Shown here piece after piece: positions 3,028 through 40,184 of a stretch of DNA of 40,184 bases. Positions within the stretch are counted from its first letter, which is position 1; each line of letters opens with the position of its first letter. Origin of the DNA: a virus; IMG/VR virus record IMGVR_UViG_3300042430_002650, positions 1-40,184 of that record; one strand, written 5' to 3'. The position numbers were made by a program, and so were the translations under genes. Below the pieces are notes generated by a model. That model saw only the letters and a program-made list of their open reading frames with translations, ran no database searches and was not told the origin of the DNA.

Positions 3028-3417
3028 TCATGGACGGGCTGTTTTTTCACCGTGGCAGCGCGAACATGGTTGGTAGGTTTCGCCATCAGCGATTGAGACG
3101 CGGGCGAGAGTTTGGCCTGTGCCAGTGCAGCGGTAGCATCGGTTGTTTTTCTGCTCCCATGCCAGCTTCCAGGTGAGATGGTCGGCAATGCTGACCACGA
3201 ACTCCCGGCGGGTGGATTTGTCCATTTTCCGCCAGTTGCGGCGGCCCTTCCTTGGGCCGCGTGTGATGAGCGGTGCCACGACCCCAATGATGGAGAAATG
3301 CGTGGCGATGTAATCCTTCTGCCCGTCCTGGGATCTGGGTAGGCAGCTAAACTGGTAGCCCTCCCATTCAGCCGGGAGGGCGAGTGATTCGCGGGCTTGT
3401 AAAACGAGTAAGTTCAT
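3028..3417 (-). CDS. Small zinc-ribbon protein, unknown function
   Basis: A 129-residue protein. The C-terminal half carries two cysteine knuckles, CYRCTGTGQ and CSRCHGE, about 25 residues apart. This is the CxxCxGxG-type arrangement of DnaJ-like zinc ribbons and many phage NinX/recombination-associated small proteins. The N-terminal part (LPAEWEGYQFSCLPRSQDGQ) is not recognised. It starts at ATG 3417, three bases after the stop of the SSB-like gene, and ends 21 bases before the small terminase, so it bridges replication and packaging genes. A nucleic-acid-binding role is an inference from the zinc ribbon only. Confidence 0.75.
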   Translation of the reverse strand: MNLLVLQARESLALPAEWEGYQFSCLPRSQDGQKDYIATHFSIIGVVAPLITRGPRKGRRNWRKMDKSTRREFVVSIADHLTWKLAWEQKNNRCYRCTGTGQTLARVSIADGETYQPCSRCHGEKTARP

Positions 3418-3420
3418 AGC

Positions 3421-3828
3421 TCAAAAGGGAATGTCGTCGTCTTCAAAGCCGTCGCTCATCGCGCCCGCCTCGGTCTGCTGCGTCACCGGAGCACCCGCCG
3501 CAGGTCGTGCCGTGCGCTGGCCGCCTGCGTCATATTCCTTGGCATTCCCCAGGAACGGCAGATTCGGCGGCTCAGAACTTTCACGCTCCACCTTCGTCGT
3601 GCTCTCCTTGATCCAGTGCGTGTTGCCAAAGTCGTCCTTGCCCTCTTTGTTCGGCACTAGGTCCATGGATAAGCCCAGCCTGCCGCTCTTCTCCGAGCGG
3701 CGAATGCGCGAGTTTTTCAGCGGGATGACCAAGCATTCCGTGGGCGTGCCGGTCTTGTCTTTGAGGTTCATCAGCACCGCCCCCTGAAATTTGCTGGGGT
3801 CGATGTAGGCGTTAAGTTTGTTGTGCAT
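3421..3828 (-). CDS. SSB-like single-strand DNA-binding protein (acidic DDDIPF tail)
   Basis: A 135-residue protein when started at ATG 3828; an in-frame upstream extension to 3885 exists but adds only 19 basic residues from the leader. The last residues, GFEDDDIPF, are the canonical acidic C-terminal tip that bacterial SSB uses to recruit replication and repair partners. A Gly/Ala/Gln-rich linker (about residues 95-125) precedes it, also as in SSB. The N-terminal domain (NLKDKTGTPTECLVIPL, RLGLSMDLVPN) is beta-rich and does not look like textbook OB-fold SSB, so it may be a diverged fold with a captured tail. It lies downstream of DnaB-like helicase, consistent with a replisome role. Confidence 0.75.
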   Translation of the reverse strand: MHNKLNAYIDPSKFQGAVLMNLKDKTGTPTECLVIPLKNSRIRRSEKSGRLGLSMDLVPNKEGKDDFGNTHWIKESTTKVERESSEPPNLPFLGNAKEYDAGGQRTARPAAGAPVTQQTEAGAMSDGFEDDDIPF

Positions 3829-3848
3829 GGGGTGGGTGGGTTTGCGGT

Positions 3849-4049
3849 TCAGGAAAGTGCCAGGCTTTGGATGAAATCGCGCCACTGGCCGGGCTGTCTG
3901 GAGTCCAAAAACGCGGCGGCGCTGCCGTGGCGATTTTTGACCACATGGCCGTCGCCATTGTCGTCGATCTCGATCACCACTTCGTGCAGGCTTTGCTCGG
4001 CAGTCGTGCTGTGTGGTTCGTCGTCGGTGAGGATTAGAATGCTGGTCAT
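3849..4049 (-). CDS. Small acidic protein, unknown function
   Basis: A 66-residue protein from ATG 4049. An upstream in-frame Met at 4115 would translate the CA/AAC repeat leader (residues HTHNNNN), so 4049 is preferred. The sequence starts TSILILTDDEPHSTTAEQSL and contains an acidic patch (EIDDNGDG) and a Trp near the C-terminus. No family is recognised. It lies between the helicase and the SSB-like gene, on the same strand. Its leader is a striking run of CACA and ACAACA repeats with no Shine-Dalgarno site. Confidence 0.6.
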   Translation of the reverse strand: MTSILILTDDEPHSTTAEQSLHEVVIEIDDNGDGHVVKNRHGSAAAFLDSRQPGQWRDFIQSLALS

Positions 4050-4086
4050 GATGTTGTTGTTGTTGTGTGTGTGGGTGGTCGGGAAA

Positions 4087-5700
4087 TCAGTCGTCAAATT
4101 CAGCGAGGCTGGCACCCGCGGGCGCGGACTTGTCGCGCCAGTTTTTGCCGGGTTCTTTCTTGCTGACCTTGGGCTTCTTCGCGTAGCCCGGCTGGTAATC
4201 GCGGGTGTTGTTGCTCAGCAGGGAGTCACCCATGCTGCGCAGTCTAAAGATGCTCTTGTCAAACGGGAAGACCAGCGGAGCGCCATCGGTGGTGGTGGGT
4301 CCGTCCTTGTTCTTGGCAAGGTCGAAGCCCATGTATTCCTGCTCGCTGGGCAGGCCATCTTCCCCCTGCGTGAGTTCTTCGGGCGCATCGCAGATCATGC
4401 CGATGTAATCGGCATCCTGCTCGATCTGGCCGGACTCACGCAAGTCGGCCATGCCAGGCCGCGCCTTGTCACCATCACGGTTCAACTGCGCCAGGGTGAT
4501 CACTGGAATATCAAACTCATGCGCCAGGTGCTTCAAGCCCATGCTGATTTCCGCGATCTCAATCTGCCGCGACTGCTGCGCACGGCGCGAGCTGCTGCTC
4601 AGCAGTTGCAGGTAGTCGAGCAAGACCACGCACTTGGGCAGGCCATCCGTGCGCTCCGGCAAGCGTGAAATCTGCATGCGTGCCGTGGCTCGCAGTTCTT
4701 GAATGGTCATGCCAAAGGACTCATGCAGCCAGATTTGCGAGCGCTTCAACTCAGCCACGGCCACGCCTAACTTATCCTGCTCTGCGCGGGACATCAGGCC
4801 ATCACGCGCCTTAGAAATCGGCACCGTCCATTCATTCAGTAGCATGCGCCGCGTCAGCGCACGATCCGTGGTTTCCAGCGAGAAGAACAACACCGGGATG
4901 GGTGCTTGCTTGAACTCGTGATAATGCCCACGCCCCGTGCCGACGTTCAGCGCGATCTGGCAGGCCAGCACCGTCTTGCCGCGTGAAGGGCGGGCCGCGA
5001 TGACAAACAAGCCCGTTTTCAGGCCCATGATCACACGGTCGAGATCGGTGAAACCAAGCTGCACACCGCCTGCGATGTGGCCTTTGTTGTTGTAGGCCAA
5101 CTCAATTTCCGCCACCACTTCACCGACCACTTCCTTGATGTGCCGCGTGCCGCGTTTGGTGCTCTGCTCGTGCAGGTTGAAGAGGTCTCCTTCGGCCTTC
5201 TCAATCGCCGCCTTCCAGGACTGCGTGGTGTCAGTGGACGCAGCCGCCATGGACCACGCCGCCTTCAGCATGCCGCGCCGCGCCCGCATCTCCTCCAGCA
5301 TGGCCAGGTGATGAGCCATCATCGCAGGGGTGGCGGGCAGCATTTGCCCATACAGGTCGGAAATCCGCGCCGCACCGCCCACCATCTCAAGCTCCTGCCG
5401 GTGCCGCAAGCGCCCGGTGAACGTCACCACGTCTGCCCGCTGGCCGGAAACCGCCAGCTCCTCGATGAGCAGGAACACGGTGCGATTGTGAACGTGCTCA
5501 AACAGGTCATTGCGCAGCCGCCGCCCGTGCGCCTGCCACACCTCGCCGATCTGATCCAGATCCAGCGCATTGAGCAGCATGCCCAGCATCCATTCCTCAG
5601 ACTCCTTGGACCATGGAAGGGCCACATTCAGCCGCACATCGCGGCTGGCCGCTTCCTGCTCACGGTTTTCCTGCTCCTGCAATTCTTCGATTGTCATCAT
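4087..5700 (-). CDS. Replicative DNA helicase, DnaB family
   Basis: A 537-residue hexameric 5'-3' helicase. The N-terminal domain (about residues 30-150) is followed by a RecA-type motor with Walker A AARPSRGKT, motif FFSLETTDRALTRRM, Walker B CVVLLDYLQLL and the DnaB signature LAQLNRDGDKARP, DLRESGQIEQDADYIG. All motifs are intact. The start ATG at 5700 overlaps the stop of the upstream replisome-organizer-like gene as ATGA, which decides it over an upstream in-frame Met at 5778. The tail (about 60 residues) is basic and Pro/Lys-rich. Paired with the upstream loader-like gene and downstream SSB-tailed protein, it forms the phage replication module; no phage polymerase is visible, so host polymerase is presumably used. 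Confidence 0.95.
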   Translation of the reverse strand: MMTIEELQEQENREQEAASRDVRLNVALPWSKESEEWMLGMLLNALDLDQIGEVWQAHGRRLRNDLFEHVHNRTVFLLIEELAVSGQRADVVTFTGRLRHRQELEMVGGAARISDLYGQMLPATPAMMAHHLAMLEEMRARRGMLKAAWSMAAASTDTTQSWKAAIEKAEGDLFNLHEQSTKRGTRHIKEVVGEVVAEIELAYNNKGHIAGGVQLGFTDLDRVIMGLKTGLFVIAARPSRGKTVLACQIALNVGTGRGHYHEFKQAPIPVLFFSLETTDRALTRRMLLNEWTVPISKARDGLMSRAEQDKLGVAVAELKRSQIWLHESFGMTIQELRATARMQISRLPERTDGLPKCVVLLDYLQLLSSSSRRAQQSRQIEIAEISMGLKHLAHEFDIPVITLAQLNRDGDKARPGMADLRESGQIEQDADYIGMICDAPEELTQGEDGLPSEQEYMGFDLAKNKDGPTTTDGAPLVFPFDKSIFRLRSMGDSLLSNNTRDYQPGYAKKPKVSKKEPGKNWRDKSAPAGASLAEFDD

Positions 5701-7777: not shown

Positions 7778-8191
7778 AGGATGGGTGGCAATGTGAAAAT
7801 TTTCCTCTTGGCCGGATGTATTGTAGAAGCGCGGGCGCAGCGCGGGCGCGACCCCCTCCCCCCCCTCCGAAACTGAACCAAGCAGCCAGGCCGCCGGGCA
7901 CCCAGCCCAGCCACCGGCCAGCCAGCAAACCATCTAGCAGCGCCAAAGGCGGGCGCTTTGCCCAGTGAAACGCCTGAGAAATAACAGATTGCAAATCTAG
8001 TGCGGAGGATTTTGGGGGCAATGCCGCCCTCGATCCGCGCCTCGATCCGCGCCCAGGCCGGGCGGGCCGGGCGGGCCGCCGCCAACGCGGCGTTTTCCCG
8101 CGCCGCCGAATCCATTCGGCAAACCTCCTGCTGGTCGGGGGGCGGGAAGCTCAATGCAACTGCTCCACATCGCGGAGCGCAGGATGAAGAG
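7778..8191. other. Gene-free GC-rich control region
   Basis: About 410 bases between the excisionase-like gene and the early operon. It contains a tandem CTCGATCCGCGC-like duplication (about 8032-8055), GGGCC-rich low complexity (8060-8085), a C-run (7852-7866), one GCTAGATGGT motif (7929-7938, minus strand) and one AACAGATTGCAAATCT motif (7983-7998). Open frames crossing it encode low-complexity Ala/Arg/Gly and I do not accept them. It probably holds the promoter of the leftward replication operon. Confidence 0.6.
7983..7998. promoter_or_regulatory. Candidate operator (CAGATTGCAA family), copy 1
   Basis: AACAGATTGCAAATCT, a near-palindrome sharing the 10-mer CAGATTGCAA with 9534-9543 and with the perfect palindrome at 15658-15675. 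It lies about 200 bases upstream of the leftward early operon. A repressor-binding role is inferred from repetition at control points. Confidence 0.45.
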
Positions 8192-14241: not shown

Positions 14242-15642
14242 TCAGCCTTTAGCCTTGGGCTTTTTGGCTTGGGCCTTGTCCACCTGCTCGAACGGATTCA
14301 CCAGCGGCACCACCTTCTCATTTCGCGTGTAAGTGCTGCGCACCATCGCCGTCGTCGTATGACCCGCCGCCGCCGCCGCCATCTCATCGCCATACTGGTT
14401 GCGCAAAATTTGCAGCTTGTGATGCCGGAACATGCTCATCTTCTTCGTGCCCTGCATGCCCAGGTCAGTCAGCCATTCGTTCGCCTGCACCAGAATAAGT
14501 TTGGCATCCGTCGGATGCTTCACGCCGAACAGGCTGGCATCTGTCCGCACCGCCAGCACCGCCGCCACGCACTCCGCATCGACCATGGTAAACGACTCAT
14601 TGCCGCCCTTCGCTTCGGGTTGCGTGATGATCCCCGTGCCGTCCTCCTGCACCTTGAGCGCGTCACCGCGCAGTTCCAGCGCCTTCCCCGGCCTGCCACT
14701 CAGCCAGGCGCACAGCAGCACGAAGGCCCACACCCTTGGGTTCTTCGCCTTCAGCTCCGGCAGCTCCTTCACGATCCGATCCATCACCGCGTGATCAATC
14801 TCACGGTGGCCCTTGGGCACCGGCAGCATCTTCGTCAGTTGGACCCCGAGAAAATCGTCCAGTGGCGGAATGTTCAGCCCGCGCAGTGTATCGTCACGGC
14901 TCATCCCATTGAAGATGCTCTTTGCGCTCACCACATGGCCCAGGATCGTCGTGTTCCACGCCGCCGCCGTCTCCGTATCCCGGCGCAGTTTGCGTGCCCG
15001 TTGCAGCTCGCGCAGCTTTTCCCAGCCATCTGGCGGCATATTCTTGCCCGCCGCCAGCCCCAGCCAGCCGCGCCGTCCCGCCTCCTGCCGCAGCTCGACC
15101 CAATCGTAGATCAGCGTCCGCGTCAGATCCTCCCACACCATGTTGGTGTGGACCGAGAACAAACGTCCCGGCTTCACCGTCCCATCTTTGGGGGCGGGCA
15201 CCCGTTTAACCACCAACTCCTTGCCGGTCGTTTGCTCGTAAATGGAGGCCAAGAAATTCACCCGCTGCCGCCTGTCCTTCGGCCCCCGCTCCAGGTAAAC
15301 CTCCAGCACCTCCGAAACGCTCGCCCACTTCTTGGGATTGATCAGCTCCTGCAGCCGGTCCAGCTCACCCCGTTGCAGCATCGCCGTGTGCGCCTCCAAA
15401 AACTTCCTCGCCCATTTATGCACGGGTTCCTGGCACTGTTTGCACCCCGCCCGCGTCTTCACCGGATTCCCAGTTTCAGCCAGGCACTTGTCACAGAGCC
15501 TGTAAGGATGCTTCAAGCGCGTCAGCGGCTTCCCCGTCCCCACAAAAAAGCGCACAATCCACTTCCATTCAAACTGCGGCAGGCCTTCCGGCCTCGCCTT
15601 CGGCTGACGATAAATTGAGTATGATCCGAGGGATGTTTTCAT
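14242..15642 (-). CDS. int: Tyrosine-recombinase integrase (divergent, with N-terminal zinc-ribbon-like cysteines)
   Basis: A 466-residue site-specific recombinase started at ATG 15642 (a TTG at 15669 lies inside an operator palindrome and is less likely). Visible catalytic elements: Arg about 317 in AWLSGRPGKALELRG, Lys in TQPEAKGGNE, His about 428 in AAAGHTTTAMV and nucleophile Tyr about 438 in RSTYTR. The usual HxxR box reads RHHKLQILR, so the second arginine is not in the standard place. Near residues 50-70, CDKC and CKQC form a zinc-ribbon-like pair, unusual for integrases. The attachment core lies about 200 bases upstream, the expected int-attP order. It is convergent with the rightward operon across a shared terminator. 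Confidence 0.85.
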   Translation of the reverse strand: MKTSLGSYSIYRQPKARPEGLPQFEWKWIVRFFVGTGKPLTRLKHPYRLCDKCLAETGNPVKTRAGCKQCQEPVHKWARKFLEAHTAMLQRGELDRLQELINPKKWASVSEVLEVYLERGPKDRRQRVNFLASIYEQTTGKELVVKRVPAPKDGTVKPGRLFSVHTNMVWEDLTRTLIYDWVELRQEAGRRGWLGLAAGKNMPPDGWEKLRELQRARKLRRDTETAAAWNTTILGHVVSAKSIFNGMSRDDTLRGLNIPPLDDFLGVQLTKMLPVPKGHREIDHAVMDRIVKELPELKAKNPRVWAFVLLCAWLSGRPGKALELRGDALKVQEDGTGIITQPEAKGGNESFTMVDAECVAAVLAVRTDASLFGVKHPTDAKLILVQANEWLTDLGMQGTKKMSMFRHHKLQILRNQYGDEMAAAAAGHTTTAMVRSTYTRNEKVVPLVNPFEQVDKAQAKKPKAKG

Positions 15643-15657
15643 GGTGTTTTTGGCGGT

Positions 15658-15675
15658 AACAGATTGCAATCTGTT
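15658..15675. promoter_or_regulatory. Perfect 18-bp palindrome upstream of integrase (CAGATTGCAA family, copy 3)
   Basis: AACAGATTGCAATCTGTT is its own reverse complement. It lies 16 bases upstream of the integrase ATG and includes the 10-mer found at 7985 and 9534, so it is the best-preserved operator of the set. A weak -10 (TATAGC, read leftward) lies just upstream. Confidence 0.62.
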
Positions 15676-15680
15676 GCCCT

Positions 15681-15690
15681 GCTAGATGGT
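15681..15690. repeat. GCTAGATGGT motif near integrase
   Basis: An exact 10-mer that recurs at 15943-15952 (same strand) and at 7929-7938 (opposite strand). Two copies flank the attachment region, so integrase arm or accessory-factor binding is possible. Confidence 0.4.
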
Positions 15691-15776
15691 ATGCTATACG
15701 GCAGTCCGCCACAATTCAACACAAAACAACACAAACAAAAACGCATGATTCCGCCCCGAGGAAAACCTTCATGGCC

Positions 15777-15807
15777 CTGGAACCCTTATAGAATGGGCTT
15801 TCCAGCG
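15777..15807. repeat. Attachment-region flanking repeat, left copy
   Basis: A 31-bp element matching 15899-15929 at 24 positions: CTGGA, then CCTT, TAGAAT and TTCCAGCG in register. The outer ends CTGGA and TCCAG are themselves inverted. Placed 31 bases left of the tRNA-derived core. Confidence 0.65.
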
Positions 15808-15838
15808 TGTTTCAGCCCATAAACCAGCCCTTTTAGAG

Positions 15839-15882
15839 TGGTTGCCTCACAAGGATTCGAACCTTGAATAACAGATTCAGAA
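15839..15882 (-). other. attP core: 3' half of a tRNA-Gln(CTG) gene
   Basis: Read leftward, this is a tRNA from the anticodon loop to CCA: loop TTCTGAA (15876-15882, anticodon CTG), stem TCTGT, short variable loop, T-arm CAAGG-TTCGAAT-CCTTG (15850-15866), acceptor strand TGAGGCA, then ACCA. The 5' half is absent: sequence beyond 15882 cannot pair with TCTGT or TGAGGCA. A tRNA 3' end carried beside an integrase is the classic phage attachment core that restores the host tRNA after integration. A72 implies a U1-A72 pair, as expected for tRNA-Gln. Confidence 0.82.
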
Positions 15883-15898
15883 GGCATTGAGGGCCGCG

Positions 15899-15929
15899 CT
15901 GGAGGCCTTGTAGAATATAGGTTCCAGCG
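15899..15929. repeat. Attachment-region flanking repeat, right copy
   Basis: A partner of 15777-15807 in the same orientation, 16 bases right of the core. The outer GCGCTGGA (15896-15903) and TCCAGCGC (15923-15930) form an 8-bp inverted repeat. Likely integrase arm sites. Confidence 0.65.
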
Positions 15930-15942
15930 CAAAACGCACCGC

Positions 15943-15952
15943 GCTAGATGGT
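15943..15952. repeat. GCTAGATGGT motif, second attachment-region copy
   Basis: Identical to 15681-15690 in the same orientation. Together they bracket both 31-bp repeats and the core. Confidence 0.4.
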
Positions 15953-15969
15953 CAGCTAGATTGATTTAC

Positions 15970-16469: not shown

Positions 16470-16483
16470 CACGGCTGTCAAAT
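16470..16483. repeat. 14-bp direct repeat flanking two-gene insert (right)
   Basis: A partner of 16022-16035. It spans the TGA of the MazZ-like gene; the next leftward gene starts 14 bases further on. Confidence 0.75.
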
Positions 16484-16801
16484 GGGTGCTCCGGGTCGGT
16501 TGTCCACTAGGGTGCCTGCGTGGCGGGCATCGAGCACGATGGCGCAGCCTGCGGCAACGTGGCCGAGGTGGTGGGCGGCGCTTTCGGGGTCGAGGTCTTC
16601 GCCTTCCAGCACGCAGTCGATGTGCCGTTTCATCGCGCCCAGGTAGGTCATGAGGTCCACCTTGTTCTGTCGCCAGTTCCAGGGGCCGTATTTGCGAGCG
16701 CCGAGAGTCAGCGCTGCGGCCACCTCCCGGCTGAAGACCGGCGGCAGTAGCTGGAGTTGCGGTTTGAGCGCACCGGCTGCGCCTTTGGGGTCGGTGCTCA
16801 T
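16478..16801 (-). CDS. MazZ-like dATP/dGTP diphosphohydrolase (DUF5664 type)
   Basis: A 107-residue protein from ATG 16801, just after the giant gene's stop (an overlapping start at 16867 is possible). The core ALTLGARKYGPWNW, a basic helix MKRHIDCVLEGEDLDPESAA and HHLGHVAAGCAIVLDA match the all-alpha NTP-pyrophosphohydrolase family whose phage members hydrolyse dATP/dGTP to monophosphates. In Z-DNA phages such enzymes feed 2-aminoadenine synthesis, but no PurZ, DatZ or polymerase gene is present here, so a general nucleotide-pool or defence-signalling role is more likely. Glu and His/Asp residues that could bind metal are retained. Confidence 0.75.
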   Translation of the reverse strand: MSTDPKGAAGALKPQLQLLPPVFSREVAAALTLGARKYGPWNWRQNKVDLMTYLGAMKRHIDCVLEGEDLDPESAAHHLGHVAAGCAIVLDARHAGTLVDNRPGAPI

Positions 16802-16802
16802 G

Positions 16803-19800
16803 TTACTTGACCACGCTGGCCTTGGCTCGTGCTTTGATCGCTGCGCTGCGGGCTTTGATTCGGGCATCGGCTTCCTGCACGGGCAGCTTGAGCAGGTCGG
16901 AGCCTTCGAGGCTCAGCCAGTCCTTGTATCCTTGGCCGACGGCCTTCTCGTATCTCCACACGGCGTCACGGCCCAGGGTTTCCAGCGGCACGCGCACGTT
17001 GTCTTTGATGACGGTCACCTCGTCGCTCGGCATCGGCAGGGACAGGCCACGCGCCAGCAGAGCACCGAGCACACGATGCGCCTCGCCGCTTTCCACGCTG
17101 GTGTAGGCGCGGCTCCAGGGGGTGCGTTGCAGTTTCACCTCCTCGCCCAGCAGATTGAGCTGTGGCCGGCCATCGTTCACGAATTTGCGGGCGATGGGCA
17201 TGCTGCGCAGCATCAGCTCGGCAGCGCCCTCGGGTTTGAAGCTGCGCGGATCGGTCCAGGCCTCCGCGTCTTTCATTAGGGTCGGCATAAAGCCTCCGGC
17301 AAAGCCGGTGCCGGTCTTGATCATCTGGTCGATCGTGCCGCTCACTTTGTCTGAGCTAAAGGACGGCTCGCCAAAGAGTTCCACCAGATTCCGCACGGCA
17401 GACACGTTCATTACCTGCGTGTAACCGGTGGCCACGCCGTGCAGCAGATGCCCAGCGGTGCCGCGTTCGGCCCAGCTCGCGGGCTTGTGGCGCTTCTCAT
17501 CGAGCATGCCACCGACCACGGCAAACAGGCCCATGGTCGGCCATTGCTTGTAGGACACGCGGCGCACCTTACCGCCTTCGCGTTTCCACATCGTCAGGCG
17601 TTCGTAGCCTGCGGCCATGCGTTCCTTGGCCTGCTGTGGGTTCAGGGTGCTCCAGTCGCCCTCGATCTGCCAGCCTTCGTCTTCGTCGTCACTGTTGAGG
17701 AAGATCGCCGCCAGTGTGCTGGCCAGCATCAGGCCCACGAGGTTCTTGCCGAGCAGCAGCTCCTGCTGCATGCGGCTCACGTCGCGGCCATAGAAGCCCG
17801 CCTTGCCCAGCACATAGCTGCCGGGGATGTAACGGGTCAGATCCGCGCCGAAGTTTGCACCGAAGCGCATGAACCGCGTGCCGGTGATGCCGTGCAGGGA
17901 ACCGGCCATCAAGCCGGAAATCACCCGGGCGAAGCGGTTTGCCGTCACGTCCTGCGCGTAGTCGCCTAGGCCACGCTGGATGCTGCCGAGTCCCTGCTTC
18001 ATGGCGCTGTAAACGATGCCAAACACGCCGGTGGGGTCGTTCTGGTAGGCTGCCATGTCGCCGATCTCTGACGCGGCGGCGTAGTCGGCAGGTTTCACGG
18101 TGCCGTTGAGGATTTCGCGGGTGCGAGCGCTCACCGTGGCGCGTTCCTGGCCGGGCTTTGGCTCGGCACCGCCGGTCACTTCCCGCAGTGCTTGCGTGCG
18201 GGCGTCGGCGCGTTCGCTCGCGGTGAAGCCTACCCTGCCCTGGTAGAGTTCAGGGTGCAGCGCTCGTGCCACGGCGATTGCGCCCTGCGTGGTGGCCGTG
18301 TTGTTGATGTGGTCAGCGGCAGCCATGAGGCGGCCCGTGAACAGCATGACCGGAGCCAGGCCGTATTTCTGAAAGGCACGACCAGCAGCAGTCTTGGCAT
18401 CTGGATCGCGCCACAGGTTCTCTCCCATCGGCACGGGTGTCACGCTCGTCTCGCCCTCCAGCGCCTTCTTCAGGTCTGCGCCAAAGCGTTTCAGGTAGCT
18501 GGTGTCTCCCTTGAACAGGATTTGACCGCTCTCCCGCACGCCTTCAAACAGACCGCGCCACCATTGCGCATGCGCGTCGATGGCGGCACGGCCTTGGCCA
18601 CGCGCCATGAGTCCACCGATCTGCATGAGGTTCGTGCCCATGCCGTTGATGGCGGCCAGCCAGGTGTCAAACTGCGTGCGCAGGCCAGACAGCACGGCGG
18701 TGGTCCAGTAGGAGTTCAGCACCTCGATCCAGCTCGCGCCGGTCTTCTTCTGGATGGCGTTCAGCAGATCGCGCAGCTTCTGGTTGCGGATCACACCTTC
18801 CGGCAGCTTCCAGGCGGCTTCTGCCAGCGTGCGCAGTTGTGCGGTGTCGGCAGCGGTCAGCATGCGCAGGCCGTATTCAGGGGCCACGGCCTCCCGCCAC
18901 ATCTCCGAGTTGAACATGCCCAGGTTGATCATGCGCAGCAGTTTTGGCAGTGCCTTCTGCACCTTCACACGGTCCGTCTTGTCCGTCTCACCGAGCACGC
19001 CCGCCTTCTCCAGTTCCCTGTTGAAGACCTTGCGGCGTTCACGCTGCCAGGCTTTGTCCAATTCGTTGGTCAGGGCCAGGCGTTCGTCCTGCGTCAGTCC
19101 TTGCAGCCGCTCGTCCAGCATGAGCCGCCGGTAAATCTCGATCTGCCGGGCCTTCTGTGTTGAAGGCATGTCCGTAAAAATTTCCGCCCAATTCATGCCG
19201 GGGGCGATCTTGGCGGCCAACTCCTTCAGCAGCTTGGCCAGCGCCGGGCTGTCCTTGGCCAGCAAGCGGTTCTTCGTAGCCTCGGCAGCTTTGGCGGTCG
19301 TCTCAGCAGCCTGCTGCTGCCATTGCTGCAAGGTCTCGTTCAAAGCCCGAACGGCCAGTGGTCGCCCCTGCGCCCAGGCCTCGGGAGAAATGCCACCCGC
19401 CTGCGCCTCCTCATCCCACACACGCATCACCGCCTCCATGGCCCGCTGCGGATTGCGCAGGACTTCCGCCCGCACATCTACGGCACGTTGCCCGCTTTGA
19501 TCTGCGCCCGTCGCCAGCGTCTGTCCATAGCCAGCCGCCTCAAAGCCACGTTGCACCGCCTGCTTCACCATGCCCGGCGCATAGGCCACCGTCGGCGTGG
19601 CTGGCATCAGCTCATTGAGCCGTTTCAGTGCCGCCGACTCGGTCATACCCAGCTCGATCAGCATGAGGCGCACCTGCTCCCGGCCTGCCTTCCATGACTC
19701 TTCAAACATGGGAGCCTCTGCCACCTGGTCCACAAACGTGCGGGCCAGCAATTCACCGAATGACAACGCATCAGGCTTTAAAGGCTTGCCCCTGACCGCT

Positions 19801-39301: not shown

Positions 39302-40184
39302 TCAGTAGCCAAATTCGGATTCTGCCACGCGCTTGAACACGCTGCGTTTGATGTGCCGCGGGGAAGCCAGGCAGAAGTAGCGCCAGACGGCATTCGGATC
39401 ACCGCAGGCTTCATCTTTGGCGCGGGTGCTATCTGACAGCGGCGGCAGGGTGTAGTGGTTGAACATGAATACGGTGTTGGTGCATTCCCGGTTCACACGC
39501 ACGCGGGGCAGGCCCATGACACTCTCTCCCAGGGCGGTGCGGATGTTTTGGTTCCCCGCTGCTTTGCGGGTGCCATCGGGCAGGTTAAGCTCTTTGAAAC
39601 CGCACTTCATCTGCGACACGACTTCATCAATCTTCTGGCCGCTGTTGCGATCACTCCAATGGCTCCAGCGTGGATCTCCCCACAGTTCAAACAGTTCGGC
39701 AAACTGCCCTTCCACGGTCACGACTTCGCCCGGACGAGTTTCGAGGGTGAAGGTGCGCTCCAGCACGCGGCCCTGCCACGGCTCACCGCTCTCCCGCATG
39801 CGCTCCAAAAAGCGCTTGAGCATTTCCCACACGATGAGGAACTGCCGCTCCAAACCCCAGCCGAGGCGCAAGTCCTGCGCTGGGCCTTCATCGCCATTCA
39901 TGCGGTCTCCGGCGCTGACCACGGCCCACGGGCCGGGCATGCAGCCGTTGATCGGCACCGTCTCACACGGCCACTCCATGGCCTGCCAGTAGCGGCCCAG
40001 CGGATCCACCACCCACAGGCCAACGAACCACGGCTTGGCGTCCGCACCGTCGATCACCACATAAATCGACCCGTCACGCGGGATGTCTTTCCAGTCGCAC
40101 AGGTGCAGGTCTTCGCTCCACGCATTGGCAAACTCGCTGCGCTGGTCCTGCTCGACATCGCCATACAGCTTCATGCGCACCTGG
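39302..40184 (-). CDS. terL: Terminase large subunit, C-terminal nuclease part (cut by window edge)
   Basis: Open at the right edge and ending with TAA-type stop at 39302; continues the gene at 1-1771 across the 560-base terminal repeat. The segment SIYVVIDGADAKPWFVGLWV is the first strand and acidic residue of the RNase H-like nuclease; SAGDRMNGDEGPAQ supplies further acidic residues, and NTVFMFNHYTLPP with DPNAVWRYFCLASPRHI forms the C-terminal end. Joined length is 697 residues. An internal Met near 40180 is not a real start. Confidence 0.93.
   Translation of the reverse strand, partial: QVRMKLYGDVEQDQRSEFANAWSEDLHLCDWKDIPRDGSIYVVIDGADAKPWFVGLWVVDPLGRYWQAMEWPCETVPINGCMPGPWAVVSAGDRMNGDEGPAQDLRLGWGLERQFLIVWEMLKRFLERMRESGEPWQGRVLERTFTLETRPGEVVTVEGQFAELFELWGDPRWSHWSDRNSGQKIDEVVSQMKCGFKELNLPDGTRKAAGNQNIRTALGESVMGLPRVRVNRECTNTVFMFNHYTLPPLSDSTRAKDEACGDPNAVWRYFCLASPRHIKRSVFKRVAESEFGY
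39625..40184. repeat. Terminal direct repeat, right copy
   Basis: The 560-base partner of 1-560 with ten substitutions, eight of them synonymous third-position changes in terminase. Confidence 0.95.

Follow-up and report, generated by a model that had tools for sequence, protein, structure and literature searches.

A tRNA-Gln(CTG) half beside a tyrosine integrase gene as the probable attachment site of a temperate Verrucomicrobiaceae phage

This locus raises the question of what the 3′ part of a tRNA gene does in a phage genome that holds no complete one. The stretch analysed, referred to here as the window, comprises the 40,184 nucleotides of the IMG/VR record IMGVR_UViG_3300042430_002650. 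We conclude, with a probability of about 0.95, that the locus is the attP of a temperate Verrucomicrobiaceae phage, where the adjacent tyrosine integrase recombines phage DNA with the host tRNA-Gln(CTG) gene in its anticodon loop; the phage would infect freshwater members of this family and insert into that gene. Integration into a host tRNA gene is an already known lifestyle, served here by a tyrosine-integrase family missed by standard libraries and by an attP layout kept across distant relatives.

The tRNA half and the recombinase gene beside it

Although classed as linear, the record represents a complete phage genome, circular or permuted, of ∼39.6 kb, since its ends overlap by 560 bp (positions 1–560 versus 39625–40184, 98.2% identity) and a second genome, G002, is a circular permutation of it. 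The two genomes are closely related, sharing long blocks of 92–98% DNA identity and near-identical attP regions, and a further record, G001, is identical to the window. The window carries attP rather than attL or attR. The two main features are the following:

15839–15882, minus strand: attP core, the tRNA-Gln(CTG) sequence running from the anticodon loop through the 3′-terminal CCA, recognised by identity to host genes
14242–15642, minus strand: int, a tyrosine recombinase of 466 aa with a beta-rich, Cys-rich N-terminal domain, recognised by invariant residues, an AlphaFold model and relatives at two prophage edges

Read on the minus strand, the 44-bp core begins at the first base of the anticodon loop and covers the 3′ half through CCA, comprising TTCTGAA (the 7-nt loop with anticodon CTG), the anticodon stem, the variable loop, an intact T arm (CAAGG-TTCGAAT-CCTTG), the acceptor strand TGAGGCA, A and CCA. 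It occurs once in the window, with a chance expectation of 0. ARAGORN found no complete tRNA in the window, as would be expected if only half of one is there. This minus-strand reading, together with the host genes described below, bears out the preliminary description, which had recognised a tRNA-Gln(CTG) segment with an intact T arm at these positions. A system of tRNA-dependent lysogeny, with a short core, a phage-borne tRNA and integration that leaves the host tRNA broken, was also considered and rejected, as the core spans the 3′ half to CCA and the window lacks a tRNA gene.

The gene int adjoins the core at a distance of about 0.2 kb, its ATG lying ∼200 bp from the CCA end, so that an integrase gene stands directly beside the putative attP. 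No usable match to int came from sequence searches of Pfam, NCBIfam, PHROGs, the PDB sequences or deposited phages; the int sequence did not reach PF00589, and a PF00589 search of three phage records found none. Only a profile of 13 int sequences matched anything, weakly, namely XerA (E 0.018), and the assignment was then settled by fold comparison. On the other hand, R317, R406, H428 and Y438 are invariant across the 13 relatives, and the AlphaFold model (mean pLDDT 80.6) has its best PDB matches in XerA, XerH, lambda Int, Cre, Tn1549 Int and HP1 integrase, the top Foldseek matches listed being tyrosine recombinases. Judged by the catalytic residues R-(K)-(H/x)-R-(H/W)-Y and the predicted catalytic fold, the int product is a tyrosine recombinase. 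Library models miss it partly because the His of the HxxR motif is replaced in this family, by Y or S in the aligned rows.

Host genes and related prophages

An exact scan with 39 core bases across 84,980 species genomes matched 20 loci, all of them in Verrucomicrobiaceae, Prosthecobacter or unclassified Verrucomicrobia MAGs. ARAGORN called a whole tRNA-Gln(ctg) at 19 of these, while the remaining one, L006, is a displaced 3′ copy without the 5′ half. Identity between phage and host extends over 44–48 bp and begins exactly at the anticodon loop; the phage DNA is therefore identical to the 3′ part of the host tRNA, as in a tRNA-type attP. The integration target that had been predicted, a tRNA-Gln(CTG) gene of the host with the 44-mer at its end, thus exists in many Verrucomicrobiaceae genomes, and a further prediction, that the A72 of the core calls for a U1-A72 pair, agrees with host genes that begin TGCCTCA and pair with the core acceptor.

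One MAG holds both L006 (the displaced copy, at about 2630–2668) and a whole gene, L010 (599–672). Since these two share a MAG and the downstream flank of L006 is similar to those of L008, L020 and other loci without an interruption, the tRNA-Gln(CTG) gene has probably already been used by another integrated element.

The proposed host-genome check was borne out as regards the target genes carrying the core, but 19 host genomes and, likewise, 68 genomes of the family yielded no prophage of this phage beside them. Relatives of the integrase occurred in only 3 of the 68 family genomes, and a profile search found five carriers among 387 order genomes; a simple motif search of the open reading frames downstream of the host tRNA-Gln genes revealed no tyrosine recombinase. 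The preliminary description had held that prophages of this phage at another locus would speak against it; none turned up at any locus in the genomes surveyed, and its relatives carry cores of their own target tRNAs.

Two of these relatives, with 25–38% integrase identity, are complete prophages of 42.1 and 40.8 kb in tRNA-Phe and tRNA-Met genes, respectively. Both end in 47-bp repeats of the tRNA 3′ end, both are bounded by an intact tRNA and a fragment, and in both int lies beside the intact tRNA. The first, c603 (contig C603 of G047, a genome of the Verrucomicrobiaceae family), has its repeats at 2848–2894 and 44926–44972, 42,078 bp apart, and its int (3053–4354, 38% identity) follows right after the intact tRNA-Phe. 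It is syntenic with the window's minus strand through int, a DnaB helicase, structural genes and a very large protein, which is the last before the far end and 51% identical over 820 residues between the two. In the second, c63 (contig C63 of G010), the int relative follows tRNA-Met(CAT) and the 47-bp repeats lie 40,845 bp apart. It follows from this layout that an integrated copy of the present phage would have the intact tRNA, an arm and int at one end and the displaced fragment at the opposite end. IMG/VR relatives have a tRNA half at a similar place upstream of int; it corresponds to tRNA-Gln(CTG), in two sequence types, or to tRNA-Met(CAT), and always begins at the anticodon loop. The earlier proposal that the locus is an attP hence gains from both the tyrosine recombinase next to it and the related phages that occupy tRNA genes with an equal layout.

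These relatives also bear on two other explanations of the half. It might have no present function, being a passive leftover of either a captured tRNA gene or a prophage junction that has decayed, a view with which the want of a complete tRNA gene in the window and of a prophage of this phage in the genomes surveyed would agree. However, the half is unmutated, starts exactly at the anticodon loop, recurs identically in several phages whose int genes diverge, lies between sites of conserved position and has an equivalent that relatives use for integration, and we consider a leftover highly improbable. More improbable still is a tRNA mimic, the half being transcribed to serve as a tRNA fragment or decoy instead of an attachment site: its T arm is indeed intact, but it sits beside int, equivalent copies form prophage ends in relatives, and different phages represent different tRNAs.

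The position of the crossover within the proposed attP is suggested by locus L072 (contig C629 of G225, about 275–315), which carries a tRNA-Met(CAT) 5′ half that is 92% identical to an intact tRNA-Met locus on another contig. The match runs through CTCATAAT and is lost right after the anticodon loop, with an int relative adjacent. This divergence point and the left ends of the repeats point to a crossover in the anticodon loop, which corresponds to the Islander class A position (PMC4383910). L072 itself could represent integration without rebuilding of the tRNA.

Flanking sites and possible exchange of integrase domains

The core is flanked by several repeated sequences, here listed from the int side (P′) to the opposite arm (P):

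15655–15678, no strand: near-perfect 24-bp palindrome just upstream of the int start, 92% complementary, also in G001 and G002
15681–15698, minus strand: outer tandem pair on the int side, TATAGC-N6-TCTAGC, 12-bp period with one mismatch, including one GCTAGATGGT; place and period kept in relatives
15710–15739, minus strand: three 10-bp direct repeats, TTTGTTTGTG/TTGTTTTGTG/TTGAATTGTG, probable P′ arm-type sites (16/20 matches, p=0.005)
15777–15807, minus strand: inner site on the P′ side, CTGGAA-N12-AAGGG-TTCCAG, an imperfect palindrome and the first of two 31-bp repeats described earlier, at a conserved offset
15899–15929, minus strand: inner site on the P side, CTGGAA-N12-AAGG-CCTCCAG, the second 31-bp repeat, at a conserved offset
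15943–15960, minus strand: outer tandem pair on the P side, TCTAGC-N6-TCTAGC, including the second GCTAGATGGT; the sole perfect pair in 40 kb, at offset −81 in relatives

Counting from the first anticodon-loop base as 0 in tRNA sense, the order in the window is the outer TCTAGC pair (−81), one inner site (about −47 to −17), the core (0 to 43), the second inner site (75–105), the 10-bp repeats (143–172), the other outer pair (about 184–201) and the int ATG (240). Most relatives repeat this order with nearly equal distances. Direct repeats, candidate arm-type sites, thus flank the core on both sides. Just past the P arm, a protein encoded at 16478–16867 (minus strand) contains the N-terminal domain of a dATP/dGTP diphosphohydrolase (PF18909), possibly a phage nucleotide-metabolism gene.

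The two 31-bp repeats lie in the same orientation at the positions given in the preliminary description, albeit with 23 of 31 identical bases instead of 24. The form common to them, CTGGAA-N11-14-AAGG, occurs nowhere else in the 40 kb (0.05 expected), and between the window and c603 the inner sites match at equal offset in 13/16 and, for 15777–15807, 15/16 positions (p=0.003 each versus shuffles). The GCTAGATGGT motifs said to bracket the core are present as exact copies at 15681 and 15943, with a third at 7929 on the opposite strand, and proved to be halves of the outer 12-bp-period pairs; these pairs, the 10-bp repeats and the adjacent integrase had all been overlooked. The palindrome at 15655–15678 contains AACAGATT/AATCTGTT, the letters of the tRNA-Gln anticodon stem, and is absent from relatives other than G002 and the identical G001. 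It is possibly an int operator, mimicking the core site so that Int could control its own gene.

Similar 10-bp repeats occur in relatives at about +140 to +175. Among nine attP regions they gave p=0.005 in six, 0.015 in c603 and 0.065, which is not significant, in c63; in L052 the top-scoring repeat lies elsewhere, with TTCTC units visible at the expected place. From phage to phage, the 10-bp unit changes along with the N-terminal domain of the integrase. Window and G002, whose N-domains are 91% identical, have the same arm repeats, and c603 and L052 (69%) both have TTTCTC arm units with different targets, tRNA-Phe and tRNA-Met. Because the units track the N-domain, and because the 31-bp repeats are kept between window and c603 at only 27% N-domain identity, we infer that the 10-bp repeats are the likelier arm-type sites for that domain, and that the 31-bp repeats would bind a more conserved factor such as a host bending protein or excisionase. 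The earlier suggestion that the 31-bp repeats are integrase arm sites stands insofar as they belong to attP, at a fixed distance from the core. That they are nevertheless the arm-type sites, the 10-bp repeats doing other work such as int promoter control, would accord with their presence on both core sides in one orientation at conserved distances; it seems unlikely, though worth keeping in mind, given their likeness across dissimilar N-domains and the 10-bp units that are alike where N-domains are alike and differ where they are not.

Unlike the N-domains, the catalytic domains of the window's int (14242–15642) and that of G002 (L044, 4001–5356) are only 34% identical in phages otherwise near-identical, whereas G002 shares 81% with L045 and the window 73% with L043. 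This difference suggests a domain swap in which attP was kept, and one tRNA-Gln core appears to be served by two catalytic lineages. We tentatively propose, at somewhat less than even odds, a modular integrase family in which the N-domain travels with its own 10-bp arms while the core-binding and catalytic domains are exchanged or retargeted separately in one attP frame.

Proposed integration and comparison with known systems

According to the attP reading, the integrase would exchange strands with the host gene within the 7-bp anticodon loop (15876–15882), and the phage-borne 44 bp would restore an intact tRNA-Gln beside int, displacing the original 3′ half to the far end, beside the large tail-region gene. 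The predicted attL would consist of a whole tRNA-Gln(CTG) followed by CTCTAAAAGGGCTGGTTTATG, and the predicted attR of the P arm followed by the displaced 3′ half. The triple 10-bp repeats would be occupied by residues 1–125 of the integrase, its N-terminal domain, the inner palindromes by a DNA-bending protein or excisionase, and the outer pairs, one beside the int start, may serve excisionase or autoregulation.

These data tie an uncultured phage group to Verrucomicrobiaceae, Prosthecobacter-like hosts, and with host group and insertion gene named, lysogens become searchable. As the integrase family is missed by standard annotation, such prophages are probably under-called in Verrucomicrobiota. 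The relatives further provide a comparative attP set where the tRNA target varies separately from the arm repeats, and both of these from the integrase domains.

Among known systems, tRNA-targeting attP sites with an anticodon-loop crossover, namely Islander class A (PMC4383910) and those of mycobacteriophage Int-Y (PMC10865867), share with this locus a core of 30–45 bp over the tRNA 3′ half, which is typical of the common cores of Int-Y phages (PMC10865867), as well as a rebuilt tRNA, an adjacent integrase gene and repeats beside the core. They differ in that the present system is verrucomicrobial and its integrase sequence is unmatched in Pfam, NCBIfam, PHROGs and deposited phage records. 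Likewise, lambda Int and its attP (PMC4880445) resemble it in having a core-type exchange region, several arm-type direct repeats, here putative, and accessory sites between them over ∼240 bp, and an integrase with N-terminal, core-binding and catalytic domains, but the sites are non-homologous in sequence, the target here is a tRNA and the predicted N-domain carries a Cys-rich insertion. Finally, in KplE1 IntS/attL (PMC2951348) tRNA, att arm and int are co-directional and promoter and att site overlap. Since these elements also run in one direction here, the int promoter must lie among the recombination sites. Such overlaps are widespread, with autoregulation in the tested cases (PMC2951348), and although the candidate operator is not the same as in KplE1, autoregulation of int would by analogy be expected in this phage as well.
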